From an uncultured Ignisphaera sp. (lineage in GTDB: Archaea; Thermoproteota; Thermoprotei_A; Sulfolobales; Ignisphaeraceae): a stretch of DNA of 64,000 bases. A model generated the notes under the pieces. It was given only the letters and a program-made list of their open reading frames with translations, made no database searches and had not been told where the DNA came from. Of this stretch, positions 29,292-34,067 are shown piece after piece (position 1 is the stretch's first letter; every line of letters begins with the position of its first letter). The translations under genes were made by a program, and so were the position numbers. The stretch is taken from contig CALJEI010000006.1 in NCBI GenBank assembly GCA_938074605.1, positions 124,001-188,000 of the forward strand. The letters run 5' to 3'.

Positions 29292-29747
29292 TAGACTTCT
29301 GCACTAAACTGTCTATCTACTAGCAAACTACTCAGCTCTTTCTACCTAGAAGTTATTCCTCTAGCTCTCCAATTTTTAATGAAATGTTTAAGGTTATTAG
29401 CTTTTTCATGTCCTTGGCGCTATAGAAATGTGGCTTACATTCATAGTGTACATAGAGTAGGTATTTCTACTGATGATATACTTAAAGTAAGGTGGATCTA
29501 TTAAATTTAATTTTGATACAAAATATATTCTCCTACAGATAGAAGTAGGCATCATCCTAATGGTAAAAAAGAGATATAGATGGTAGCAGTTCTCTTTTAG
29601 ATGGATTTTATTGTCTATTGCTGAAATGGATGGCATGATATTGTGAAACTATGGGTTGTAAGATGAAAATAAGAACATAAAAATATAAATACCCTATCAA
29701 TATGAGAGTATAGATACCAAAACACCTAGATATTATGGGGGTTATAT
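29292..29747. other. Gene-free interval and pheS promoter
   Basis: About 455 bases. The only feature I can support is a TATA box AAATATAAAT at 29680-29690, about 60 bases before the inferred pheS start, and a GGGGG box at 29737-29741. A minus-strand open frame of 76 codons (29406-29636) has no protein-like composition and is not called. Confidence 0.5.
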
Positions 29748-31262
29748 ATTGTTTTAGAAAGGCGGTTAGAACCATTATCAAGGAGTGAAATAGAGTTACT
29801 TAAAAAGCTTATTGAAATAGGTAAACCAGTAGAGCTATCTGAACTTGCAGACAGATATAGAATGCCTCTAGCAACTCTCTCATCAATAGTTGAGCTTCTA
29901 AAATCTAAAAGTATTGTAGTAGTTGAAGAGACTGAAAAGATATATGGTACACTCTCTAGAGAGGGTCTTGAATACATTGATATGCTACCTGAGGAAAAAG
30001 TTGTGTTACTTTTAAAAGAATTAGGTGGGAATGCGTCAATAGATAAAATTGAAAGTGTTTTAGGCAAGGAACAGGCAAACATTGGTATAGCGTGGGCTAT
30101 AAGAAGAGGATGGATTGTAGTAGAGAAGGGGGATATAAGGTTAAAGGAATTTAAATTTCTTGAAGAGCATCATAAGATGCTTCAAATGTTCACCAATACA
30201 CGTGAAGTTCCACAGGCACTTTTAGAAGATAGAGTGTTTCAGGAACTTGTTAAAAGAAAACTTATAGTTCTCTCGAAGAAGAGAATTAAGGTAGTTAAAC
30301 TTACAATTAGTGTGGATGAAGCATTAAAGATTATTGAACATGGTGAAGGCATCTCTAGGCTAACACGTGATGTAATTGTAAATAGATTATGGATGAAAGC
30401 AAAAATTAAACCGTATAATATCGAGGCTTTACCCCCCATTAAATATAGTGGTAAGAATCATTTCTTTAAAGAATTCATAGAAATGTTGAGGGAGATTATG
30501 GAAAGTTTAGGTTTTAGTGAGGTAAAAGACGATTATGTTATACCAGAGCTGTGGAACTTCGATATACTTTTCCAGGCACAGGATCATCCATCAAGGGATA
30601 TTCATGATATTCTTATAGTTGAAGGTGATGCAGATTTATCAGAATATATAGATGTTGTTGAAAGGACCAAGAGAGTTCATGAAGAGGGTGGTGCTAGTGG
30701 TAGTATTGGATGGGGATATGGATGGAGTCTAAAGAAGGCTTCAAAATTGATATTGAGATCTCATACCACGGCTGTTACAGCTAGATATTTAATATCCTAT
30801 AGCAAGCCTCCTGTAAGACTATATACAATTGATAGAGTTTTCAGAAGAGATAATCCAGATGCAAGACATCTACCAGAATTTACTAATTTTGATGGAGTTA
30901 TTATGGAGGAAGATTTTAACTTTAGAAAGCTCCTTGGGCTACTTAGCCAAATACTAAGACATCTAGGTATTAAGAAGTTTAAATTTAAACCAGCATACTT
31001 TCCATTTACGGAGCCAAGTGTTGAGGGCTATGGATATGTAGCTGGCTATGGATGGATTGAGGTATTTGGCGCTGGTATGTTTCGCCCTGAAGTTCTAGAA
31101 ATACTTGGTGTAAAGCACCCTGTTGGTGCATGGGGAATGGGGGTGGAGAGGCTAGCTATGGTTGTATATGGTGTAGAAGATATTAGGCTACTATTTTCAA
31201 AAGATATAGAGTTTGTTAGAAGGTTCCCTATAATTAGGATAGATAGATTAGGGGGCGTATAA
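29748..31262 (+). CDS. pheS: Phenylalanyl-tRNA synthetase alpha subunit, probable non-standard start
   Basis: The catalytic subunit of PheRS. The first ATG in frame is at 29862, but the winged-helix domain typical of archaeal/eukaryotic PheS clearly extends upstream (LSRSEIELLKKLIEIGK, then PVELSELADRYRM), giving about 504 residues. No ATG, GTG or TTG exists between the upstream stop at 29727 and 29862. A GGGGG box lies six bases before an in-frame ATT at 29748. Catalytic motifs include DHPSRDIHD, the Gly-rich GASGSIGWGYGW and GAGMFRPEVLE. pheT follows after two bases. Confidence 0.9.
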   Translation: MVLERRLEPLSRSEIELLKKLIEIGKPVELSELADRYRMPLATLSSIVELLKSKSIVVVEETEKIYGTLSREGLEYIDMLPEEKVVLLLKELGGNASIDKIESVLGKEQANIGIAWAIRRGWIVVEKGDIRLKEFKFLEEHHKMLQMFTNTREVPQALLEDRVFQELVKRKLIVLSKKRIKVVKLTISVDEALKIIEHGEGISRLTRDVIVNRLWMKAKIKPYNIEALPPIKYSGKNHFFKEFIEMLREIMESLGFSEVKDDYVIPELWNFDILFQAQDHPSRDIHDILIVEGDADLSEYIDVVERTKRVHEEGGASGSIGWGYGWSLKKASKLILRSHTTAVTARYLISYSKPPVRLYTIDRVFRRDNPDARHLPEFTNFDGVIMEEDFNFRKLLGLLSQILRHLGIKKFKFKPAYFPFTEPSVEGYGYVAGYGWIEVFGAGMFRPEVLEILGVKHPVGAWGMGVERLAMVVYGVEDIRLLFSKDIEFVRRFPIIRIDRLGGV

Positions 31263-31264
31263 AT

Positions 31265-32932
31265 ATGCCTGTAGTTAGAGCTAAATTGTCTAGACTACTT
31301 GGATTAATTGGTATAGATAGTGTTGATTTACTGCAGGATATATTATTTAATTTAAAGTGTGAATCTGAGATTGAAGGGGAAGAAATATCCATAGAGGTTC
31401 AAAGCGATAGAATTGATATGTTTTCAGTTGAAGGAATAGCATATGCTGTAAGGCTCTATTTGGAGATGGCCAAGCCATCTATAATAGGGATTACTGATAA
31501 AGTGTTTAGAGTATATGTGGATGCACCAGTAAAGAGACCATATATAGCTATTGCAGCAGTTAAAAATATCAATCTAGATGAGGAGTTATTGAGAGACTTA
31601 ATAGAATTCCAAGAAAGGCTACATACAACCTTTGGAAGAAGTAGAAGAAAAGTTGCTATAGGCCTTCATGACCTTGACAAACTACCCTCTAACACTATAT
31701 ACTATAGAGATATAGATATAGATCAGACATTTATGATTCCACTACATGACTACAGAAAAATGAGTATAAGGGATGTACTAAAAACTACTGAACAGGGTGT
31801 GGTATATGGGTCTATATCCATCAATAATAATATGCATCCAGCAATACTCTCTGGAGATGAGGTGATATCACTACCTCCGGTCATAAATAGTAATATAACA
31901 AGGCTAGAACCATCCACAAGAAATATTCTAATAGATGTTACTGGAACAGATATAAAGGCTGTTGAAGCAGTTCTAAATGCTATTATTCATACACTTACAG
32001 TATATAGTAATATTGTTGTTGCAGCTGAAATTATGTACCCCAATCAAAAATTAATTACACCAAATTTAGCGTGGAGGAAGATGGTTATTGATGTTGATTT
32101 TATTTCTAAGTGGCTTGGTCTTGAAAAAGAATATATACACTCTAAAGCTACCACAGCACTAATGAAAATGGGATATATGCTAAATAATGTTGGTGAAAAA
32201 CACATTGAGGTGTTAGTACCGTACTATCGTTCAGATATATTGCATCAAGTTGATATTGTTGAGGATATAGCTATAGGGATAGGCTATGGTAGTATTACAC
32301 CAGAACCTGTTACAGCTATAGAGATGGAGGGTGAGAGAATAATTGATAGGGCTATCACTAGAGCTTTAAGAAAGGTTTTAGTGGGTTTGGGATATGTAGA
32401 AACAAATACCTTGACGATGGTGCCATCGAAGTTTTTAGAGCTTATAGGTGTAGGTGATTTTATTAAGATAGTTAACTCACCGTCTATGGAAATGGATGCT
32501 TTGAGAAATAGTTTATTGCAATCTCTGCTAATTCTCTTAGTCAATTCGCAGCATTTAGTTTTACCTATAAAACTATTTGAGATAGGCGATGTTATTTTAA
32601 GATGTGATGAATGCTATAATAAGTGGGTTAATGAGCAGAGAATTGCATGGGTTATTATGGATAGCGAGATAAAGTTTGAAGAAATACATGCAGATCTATA
32701 TGTAATTTTAAGAGAGTTAATGTTAGACGGTATTGCCGCTATAAAAAGGTGTTCCAGAACATCTTTCATTAATGGTAGATGTGGATGTATTGAAATAGAC
32801 GGTGAAGTTATTGGTGTAATAGGTGAATTGGATCCAGAAATACTTTTAAAAATCGGTATAGAGTATCCAGTAGCTGGTGTTGAATTATCAGTGGATAAAT
32901 TGTCTACAATTCTTAAACCCAGGAAAAACTAA
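31265..32932 (+). CDS. pheT: Phenylalanyl-tRNA synthetase beta subunit
   Basis: A 555-residue archaeal-type beta subunit that binds the alpha subunit, supports editing and positions tRNA-Phe. It opens with PVVRAKLSRLLGL, contains the B3/B4 editing domain (SIRDVLKTTEQGVVYGSI region) and ends with the catalytic-like but inactive domain (EIGDVILRCDEC, then GELDPEILLKIGIEYPVAGVEL). It is the second gene of a pheS-pheT operon; tyrS follows 49 bases on. Confidence 0.95.
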   Translation: MPVVRAKLSRLLGLIGIDSVDLLQDILFNLKCESEIEGEEISIEVQSDRIDMFSVEGIAYAVRLYLEMAKPSIIGITDKVFRVYVDAPVKRPYIAIAAVKNINLDEELLRDLIEFQERLHTTFGRSRRKVAIGLHDLDKLPSNTIYYRDIDIDQTFMIPLHDYRKMSIRDVLKTTEQGVVYGSISINNNMHPAILSGDEVISLPPVINSNITRLEPSTRNILIDVTGTDIKAVEAVLNAIIHTLTVYSNIVVAAEIMYPNQKLITPNLAWRKMVIDVDFISKWLGLEKEYIHSKATTALMKMGYMLNNVGEKHIEVLVPYYRSDILHQVDIVEDIAIGIGYGSITPEPVTAIEMEGERIIDRAITRALRKVLVGLGYVETNTLTMVPSKFLELIGVGDFIKIVNSPSMEMDALRNSLLQSLLILLVNSQHLVLPIKLFEIGDVILRCDECYNKWVNEQRIAWVIMDSEIKFEEIHADLYVILRELMLDGIAAIKRCSRTSFINGRCGCIEIDGEVIGVIGELDPEILLKIGIEYPVAGVELSVDKLSTILKPRKN

Positions 32933-32981: not shown

Positions 32982-34067
32982 ATGGATATAGATAAAAAGA
33001 TTAGCATAATTAAAAGGAATACTGTTGAAATTGTTACTGAAGAAGAACTTAGATCGCTACTTAGTGGGGGTGGAAGACTCAGAGGGTACATAGGGTTTGA
33101 GCCCAGTGGCATTTTTCATATAGGCTGGCTTATATGGGGCTACAAGTTTAAGGATTTAGTTGATGTGGATATTGAGATGATTTTATATGCTGCTACATGG
33201 CATGCATGGATAAATGATAAACTTGGCGGTAGAATTGAATTAATAAGAGCTGCAGCTAAGCATGTTGTAAGAGTGCTAGAGGCTTTAGGGGTTAATATGG
33301 CAAGAGTTAAAGTAGTGTATTCAGATGAACTTGTTAATAAGATGAGTTATTGGGAGAAGGTGCTAAGAATTGCAAAGAATGCCAGCTTAAGTAGGGTTAA
33401 GAGAGCCTTAACCATTATGGGTAGAAGAGCAGATGAGGCAGAGTTAGATTTTTCTAAACTTATATATCCATTGATGCAAGTGGCAGATATATTTGAAATG
33501 GACTTAGATATAGCACTTGGAGGAATAGACCAAAGGAAAGCCCATATGCTAGCAAGAGATGTTGCTGAGAAACTAGGTTTTAAAAAGCCTGTGGCTATAC
33601 ATACTCCTCTACTTCCATCGTTAAAGGGTATAAGTAAGATGGCTTCTGAAGGCATGGAAATTGATGAGATGATGTCTGAAATCAAGATGAGTAAGTCCAG
33701 ACCTGATGAAGCATTATTCATTATCGATGATGATGAAACGATAAGGAGGAAGATAAGGGGAGCTTATTGTCCACCAAAGGAGGTGGAAAATAACCCTATA
33801 CTCCATATAGCTAAATATATAGTATTTGGACAGGGGGAAAAGAAGCTTACAATTGTTCGTAAGCCTGAGTATGGAGGAAGCATTGATGTCTATAATTATA
33901 GTGAGCTTGAGGCAGTATATCGGGATGGAAAGCTCCATCCACTAGATTTAAAGAATGCTATAGCAGATGAGCTTATAAAGATTATTAAGCCTATTAGAGA
34001 AGCTCTGTATAGCGAAAAAGATCTTTGGATGGAGCTTGGTGAAATAGAAAAAAGTGTCACAAGGTGA
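32982..34067 (+). CDS. tyrS: Tyrosyl-tRNA synthetase
   Basis: A 361-residue class I synthetase. The HIGH-like motif is PSGIFHIGWLIWG near residue 42, the tyrosine-binding segment contains ALGGIDQRKAHMLARD near 178, and the KMSKS loop is EIKMSKSRPDEA near 231. Length and the missing C-terminal S4 domain fit archaeal TyrRS. It is preceded closely by pheT and followed by dnaG, a likely cotranscribed set. Confidence 0.95.
   Translation: MDIDKKISIIKRNTVEIVTEEELRSLLSGGGRLRGYIGFEPSGIFHIGWLIWGYKFKDLVDVDIEMILYAATWHAWINDKLGGRIELIRAAAKHVVRVLEALGVNMARVKVVYSDELVNKMSYWEKVLRIAKNASLSRVKRALTIMGRRADEAELDFSKLIYPLMQVADIFEMDLDIALGGIDQRKAHMLARDVAEKLGFKKPVAIHTPLLPSLKGISKMASEGMEIDEMMSEIKMSKSRPDEALFIIDDDETIRRKIRGAYCPPKEVENNPILHIAKYIVFGQGEKKLTIVRKPEYGGSIDVYNYSELEAVYRDGKLHPLDLKNAIADELIKIIKPIREALYSEKDLWMELGEIEKSVTR

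Follow-up and report, generated by a model that had tools for sequence, protein, structure and literature searches.

The window analyzed here is a stretch of 64,000 nucleotides that corresponds to positions 124001-188000 of contig C6 of genome G000 (1.63 Mb), from a heat-loving archaeon closest, among named organisms, to Ignisphaera. It harbors pheS, coding for the alpha subunit of phenylalanine--tRNA ligase (PheRS), as well as pheT and tyrS, which served as controls. The features are as follows:

29684..29691, plus strand: TATAAATA, putative TATA box for pheS transcription, recognized by sequence, about 60 bases 5' of ATT
29737..29741, plus strand: GGGGG, a G-rich Shine-Dalgarno (SD)-like box 6 nt 5' of ATT; relatives mostly have GGTG
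29748..29754, plus strand: heptamer ATTGTT[T/C], in which AUU (PheS frame) overlaps UUG-UUY (candidate decoy frame); invariant in 22 loci
29748..29750, plus strand: ATT, the PheS-frame codon at the initiation site (from sequence and conservation)
29749..29757, plus strand: putative decoy mini-ORF of the +1 frame, TTG TTT TAG, reading as start, Phe and stop (from sequence)
29748..31262, plus strand: pheS, 504 codons from ATT plus the stop codon (NF003210)
31265..32932, plus strand: pheT, ordinary ATG start, control (from sequence)
32982..34067, plus strand: tyrS, ordinary ATG start, control (NF006330, 454.6 bits)

The pheS frame is preceded by a TAG stop codon (29727-29729), after which it reads ATA TTA TGG GGG TTA TAT ATT (29748) GTT TTA GAA, and its earliest ATG, GTG or TTG is the ATG at 29862. 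An earlier note on this DNA had reported this lack of a standard start codon, together with the GGGGG box six bases ahead of ATT, the TATA box about 60 bases upstream and a winged-helix domain encoded 5' of ATG 29862, and our reading confirmed all of these. Translated from ATT, PheS scored 515.9 bits against the archaeal PheS alpha model NF003210 (cut-off, 350), the match spanning residues 10-495 and beginning at profile position 4. The product thus exceeds the curated cut-off for an archaeal PheRS alpha with its N-terminal domain included and, because the match starts at residue 10, the winged-helix part encoded upstream of ATG 29862 belongs to PheS. The gene is essential and is present in G000 as one intact copy. 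By the archaeal promoter distance rule, we presume that TATAAATA directs a leader of about 30 to 35 nt ahead of the ATT.

The proposal that pheS starts at ATT 29748 is favored by conservation, by the SD spacing and by the absence of a usable canonical start. However, the sequence constraint spans seven bases and not three, and the earlier reading had missed both a UUG that overlaps these bases one frame on (+1), with a Phe codon behind it, and the like layout, with their own codons, at other amino-acid genes. In A-UUG-UUY, AUU-GUU lies in the PheS frame, and one base later UUG-UUY represents a standard start followed by a Phe codon.

To trace this element, pheS 5' ends were recovered from 16 of the 18 genomes of family f1 (G016 gave no match and G017 only a weak, short one). 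ATT GTT [T/C] was found at the aligned position in all 16, and it was also present in all six genomes of genus g30 (family f5), whose PheS is 41 to 43% identical to that of the window; in most of these 22 loci, it follows an SD-like box. In the comparison with relatives that the earlier note had proposed, the closest one (PheS, 76% identical) carries the identical ATATATTGTTTTAGAA. Across the 22 loci, the entropy is zero at heptamer positions 1 to 6 (ATTGTT), and position 7 is occupied by T in 19 and by C in 3. The flanks are variable except for a G-rich box around -11 to -9 (G at -10 in 17 and at -9 in 18 of the loci) and a frequent T at -6, and no further conserved element was seen in the 22 aligned leaders. 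An upstream in-frame start is absent in 11 of the 22, and the GTG at codon -3, where present, overlaps the GGTG box. As a control, pheT starts with ATG or GTG in 21/21 of these loci in which it was found.

We then asked how unusual this invariance is within the gene, using an alignment of 15 full f1 pheS genes with the Met and Trp columns set aside. Among 127 conserved residues, the codon was invariant in only two, namely, the ATT and GTT of the heptamer, and the same two were the invariant codons among 90 conserved residues when g30 was included. In the rest of the f1 pheS genes, ATT makes up 36% of the Ile codons and GTT 50% of the Val codons. The third codon encodes Leu, Ser, Arg, Gln or Tyr, and its first base is always T or C, although only 33 to 34% of all pheS codons begin with these bases. 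At the sequence level, this restriction of position 7 corresponds exactly to the degeneracy of the Phe codons in the putative decoy frame, where both of them occur. The decoy ORF comprises 2 to 16 codons in the 22 loci (UUG UUU UAG in the window). Its early stops are only mildly above background and, because a background reading in this frame ends within 16 codons 76% of the time, decoy length alone is weak evidence.

The PheS tree separates f1 widely from g30, which lies inside f5 (support, 100/99), and places f4 as sister to f1. The heptamer either arose twice or is old and was often lost. In f4, the pheS site was read in five of six genomes (G041 gave no match). Four of these five harbor GGTG-N5/6-AUUUUC, in which AUU-UUC represents a start-like codon plus Phe and PheS lies one frame on (UUU-UCN), and an upstream canonical start is absent in four of the five. 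The fifth locus, L022, is a variant with one extra T that a simple slip does not fit. Overall, we inspected pheS 5' ends in about 118 genomes of the class. Ordinary ATG, TTG or GTG starts are found in most of the others, and the printed frame was uninterpretable in a few (e.g., L073, L089, L090, L095, L113, and L141). Two further occurrences of ATTGTT fall outside the 22 loci: that in G241 (L152) was discarded as a chance match, its relatives L167 and L168 being without it and an in-frame ATG lying upstream, and that in G222 (L147) is confined to a single genome, with an in-frame GTG close by. In the G222 relatives G250, G251, and G253, pheS matched in two or three pieces, possibly reflecting frameshifts or errors.

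A matching layout was found at several other amino-acid genes. In trpS, 31 of 41 loci carry NTTGTGG, which reads as UUG-UGG (Trp) outside the gene frame and as NUU-GUG within it. Within the genus, 10 of 11 genomes have it, as do 21 of 30 loci of other genera, and it extends over seven families (f1, f2, f3, f4, f5, f7, and f11); the motif was absent from the loci read in f6, f10, f12, and f14. A GG[T/G]G box lies 6 to 9 nt, mostly 8 nt, ahead of the TTG in 28 of the 31. In cysS, TTTGTGT (UUG-UGU, Cys) was present in 11/11 genomes read, and the decoy stops after two to three codons. For ileS, GGTG-N5/6-ATTAT[C/T], which represents AUU-AUY (Ile) with UUA-UYN in the gene frame, was found in 17 of 40 loci (9/10 in the genus and 8/30 elsewhere, the rest being mostly of a divergent type with ordinary starts), and L275, L352, and L353 have no canonical in-frame start near the site. 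Decoy-frame stops in trpS and ileS come no earlier than expected from background, and early stops were rejected as general evidence for a decoy ORF. The hisC gene, which turned up among ORFs lacking a canonical start close by, harbors UUG-CAU-CAC-stop in both genomes examined (A-TTG-CAT-CAC-TAG in G000 and TTG-CAT-CAC-TAA in G008). Three of the gene names used here are best hits below curated cut-offs: serA-like (308 of 454 bits), cysteine-synthase-like (166 of 344 bits), and hisC (262 of 277 bits).

TyrRS, LeuRS, ProRS, ThrRS, and HisRS of the genus, read as controls, have ordinary-looking starts. An ATT CAT ahead of the HisRS TTG was considered as a decoy and rejected; we judged it to be a spacer because a TTG at spacing 7 is ordinary. 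Among 190 first starts with a GGTG box, the modal spacing is 7 (52/190), UUG is the start in 40, and a spacing of 10 occurs in 16. Both trpS and cysS harbor an additional in-frame GTG 3 nt past the site and, since a GGTG-to-start spacing of 10 does occur, even if it is less common, they could be ordinary GUG-start genes. TT directly precedes 7 of 31 GTG-first starts.

To search for such sites without reference to gene function, we performed three scans. The first covered 399 ORFs in 464 kb of G000 and looked for GGTG plus an out-of-frame TTG, ATT or ATC at spacing 5 to 8 with no SD-placed canonical start. It flagged 11 ORFs, of which six are amino-acid genes: ileS (ATT|ATC), trpS (TTG|TGG), the cysteine-synthase-like gene (ATC|TGT), the serA-like gene (TTG|TCG), thrC (TTG|GAA|ACA|TAA), and cimA (ATC|CAA). 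The cognate codon comes first in four of these six, second in thrC, and is absent in cimA; in the remaining five ORFs, the codon showed no amino-acid relation. The second scan, of 654 ORFs in 786 kb of other genomes, placed no demand on the following codon and flagged nine ORFs, including cysS of G009 and G007 (TTG|TGT). The third, over 704 kb of G000, sought GG[T/G]G-N6-8-NTTG in which the NTT frame stays open over 100 codons or more and has a 5' stop no more than 15 codons away, again with no condition on the codon after NTTG. Four long genes without an upstream canonical start were recovered, and in all four the codon is cognate: trpS (TGG), the serA-like gene (TCG), pheS (TTT), and cysS (TGT). 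The further matches were two ORFs of 103 and 113 codons, also lacking an upstream start, which were not counted as genes, and a few ORFs with one. In the 786 kb of other genomes, matches to this scaffold without an upstream start were cysS twice and three others with no clear cognate, namely, a beta-CASP-like gene (CAA), a corrinoid-protein-like ORF (TTG), and a 103-codon ORF (GTA). When the three heptamers were searched in 1.25 Mb, the other long-frame matches inspected all lay inside genes. Based on codon counts, the four cognate matches of the third scan would occur by chance with a probability of 1.7e-6, and 1 of the 720 arrangements obtained by reassigning six decoy codons fits; because pheS and trpS inspired the hypothesis, independent cases are limited to cysS, the serA-like gene, and hisC.

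Several neighboring cases deserve mention in their own right. In thrC (G000 C2 125383-126682, minus strand), which reads C-UUG-GAA-ACA(Thr)-UAA, the cognate codon occupies the second place and not the first. The cimA gene (G000 C2 154349-155920, minus strand) and L397 in G008 run for more than 60 codons without a canonical start; an overlapping leader, GUG-ACA/AUA-GGU-GGU-CUA-GAA-AUC-CAA-GGU-UGA, ends inside cimA, whose frame would be reached by a +1 slip at the AUC (Ile) of this leader. Both cimA and thrC fit the decoy layout only loosely. Relatives of the G000 hisC, thrC, and cimA genes were not found in the 1.0-1.4 Mb region of G009; hisC and cimA relatives are present in G008. A beta-CASP RNase-like gene of G001 (stretch L405, 16709) reads A-TTG-CAA-AGA-TAA with AUU in frame and has no obvious amino acid.

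Weak starts were also observed elsewhere. The valS genes of L279, L281, L283, L284, L286, and L287 carry AGGTG-N7-ATA and seemingly no usable canonical start; the start looks like ATA, without a hidden Val codon. A TATA-binding-protein-like gene (G000 C1 41607-42320, minus strand) has no ATG, GTG or TTG for 85 codons after its 5' stop and may start at GGGACT-ATT. Finally, livF-like and cytidylate-kinase-like genes seem to start at CTG and a HAD-like gene at ATA, all with a GGTG spacing of 7; the three are listed together at G000 C2 106137, C6 91490 (minus), and C3 49083 (minus). Since the valS ATA and the other apparent CTG and ATA starts come without a cognate decoy, weak starts appear to be a wider habit of these genomes.

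The initiator anticodon CAU retains two Watson-Crick pairs with either AUU or UUG, so that the two registers should be about equally weak. Furthermore, aIF1 is described in part of PMC6237735 as discriminating against non-canonical starts, and a passage of PMC8211752 notes that, with an empty A site, slippage of a lone P-site tRNA becomes possible if the following tRNA is in short supply. In view of the conserved sequences, their frames and spacing, and the cognate match, the pheS start is probably a frame-choice switch that senses charged Phe-tRNA by means of a decoy start. The SD box would set the initiator tRNA on AUUG, where it could occupy either UUG (decoy, +1) or AUU (PheS), and the A-site codon would accordingly be UUU/UUC (Phe) or GUU (Val). 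We infer that initiation takes place in both frames and that whichever tRNA reaches the A site first, Phe-tRNA or Val-tRNA, would fix the frame, so that charging of the cognate tRNA would decide the outcome. Abundant Phe-tRNA would lock the ribosome in the decoy frame, a dead end within 2 to 16 codons. If Phe-tRNA were scarce, the initiator would slip one base back, onto AUU, and synthesis of PheRS alpha would follow. Control in this direction would amount to negative feedback without a regulator protein or an RNA structure.

The same switch may operate with their own codons in trpS (UGG), cysS (UGU), the serA-like gene (UCG), and hisC (CAU CAC). For ileS and the f4 pheS, the decoy would be AUU plus the cognate codon, the gene frame lying one base downstream, and in trpS and cysS an in-frame GUG two bases past the UUG may replace NUU. 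On balance, several genes for aminoacyl-tRNA synthetases and for amino-acid biosynthesis seem to be controlled in this manner in Sulfolobales-type archaea, by a frame switch at the initiation site in which the level of one charged tRNA would set the frame at the first peptide bond.

Among the alternatives, AUU might be merely a conserved weak start, serving low expression or a response to an initiation factor as in infC, with the UUG-Phe reading incidental. The invariant, SD-spaced AUU and the other near-cognate starts of these genomes (ATA in valS and the CTG-like starts of the livF-like and cytidylate-kinase-like genes) are consistent with this. Nevertheless, we consider it unlikely, as it leaves unexplained the invariant GTT, the T or C at position 7, and the cognate codons at trpS, cysS, ileS, and hisC. 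Quite improbable is an ordinary start at UUG, a common start codon in this genome (see the 40 of 190 above), with Phe being decoded before a programmed -1 shift at UUG-UUY into the PheS frame, which would dispense with a non-standard start. Such a shift has no need of an A before the UUG, yet this A is invariant in 22/22 loci. In addition, AUUGUUY is not a canonical -1 slippery heptamer (X-XXY-YYZ), and, because the sequence beyond position 7 varies freely, pheS has no fixed slippery heptamer. If the heptamer bound a protein, or bound an uncharged tRNA elsewhere than in the ribosomal A site, like a T-box specifier next to the start, this would account for a constraint at the sequence level and for codon identity mattering in several genes. 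However, P and A sites are expected to give just the placement seen here, with a codon immediately behind a near-cognate start, its register fixed and at SD spacing, and the aligned leader harbors no other conserved element, which makes this reading very improbable. Lastly, a sequencing or assembly error or a decayed gene, including the missing T in the TTTT run (29752-29755) suggested earlier for this assembly in contigs, can be practically dismissed because the heptamer is identical in 22 pheS loci of separate assemblies and the essential gene is present as a single intact copy.

No report of this decoy-start arrangement was found in our searches of the open-access papers of PubMed Central. 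The arrangement of a decoy start plus a cognate codon suggests a simple, so far unreported way of sensing amino acids. If true, it would be a minimal regulator of four to seven bases, with no protein and no RNA fold and with the ribosome as readout, and would represent hungry frameshifting at a sense codon put to regulatory use in nature, to our knowledge the first at an initiator tRNA. Nor do we know of well-described archaeal equivalents of the attenuators and T-boxes that act on amino-acid genes. Each gene would come with a prediction, in that altering the hidden codon should alter the amino acid sensed. Gene starts would be corrected as well, since annotation tools would place that of pheS at the internal ATG or, in relatives, at the SD itself.

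The proposed switch shares features with several known systems. In attenuation at pheL, hisL, and trpL, it is the cognate codons within a short ORF that report on tRNA charging for the pathway concerned. Attenuators rely on separate, cognate-rich leader ORFs and on transcription termination through an alternative hairpin, whereas the pheS mini-ORF of 2 to 16 codons harbors one Phe codon and overlaps the start of the gene. The AUU start of bacterial infC is a conserved non-canonical start used for regulation, with control by IF3. Likewise, AUU is present in 22/22 pheS loci, with a G-rich box in most, but the product is PheRS alpha and not a codon-discriminating initiation factor. A GTC start under IF3 control, likewise conserved and regulatory, is described for Streptomyces sigR in part of PMC5472188. 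Neither infC nor sigR involves a cognate codon. Hungry-codon frameshifting (Gallant and Lindsley, as cited in a section of PMC8211752) resembles the proposal in that a lack of charged tRNA leads to slippage of a single P-site tRNA; a passage of PMC5009743 states that no examples are known in which it yields starvation-specific trans-frame proteins. In fucA1 of Saccharolobus solfataricus, described in a portion of PMC8211752 as the sole archaeal -1 case as of 2021, the shift takes place at an internal A-AAA-AAT slippery site with a hairpin. It resembles the proposal in being a programmed -1 shift, in a related archaeon, and differs by its internal site and hairpin. Finally, prfB, coding for bacterial release factor 2, is regulated by +1 frameshifting, an autoregulatory shift aided by SD pairing according to an excerpt of PMC5009743. 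As proposed for pheS, a slow early event in the A site lets the P-site tRNA re-pair in the gene frame, resulting in negative feedback. In sequence, the pheS layout, with a putative UUG-UUY decoy and the PheS frame at -1, would be compatible with entry into the gene by way of a shift at a codon that is decoded with the help of the gene product. However, prfB employs a UGA stop codon as sensor, and a peptidyl-tRNA shifts at CUU_U, whereas pheS would sense the amino acid of its own enzyme through a sense codon right behind the start, with the initiator tRNA shifting on AUUG.
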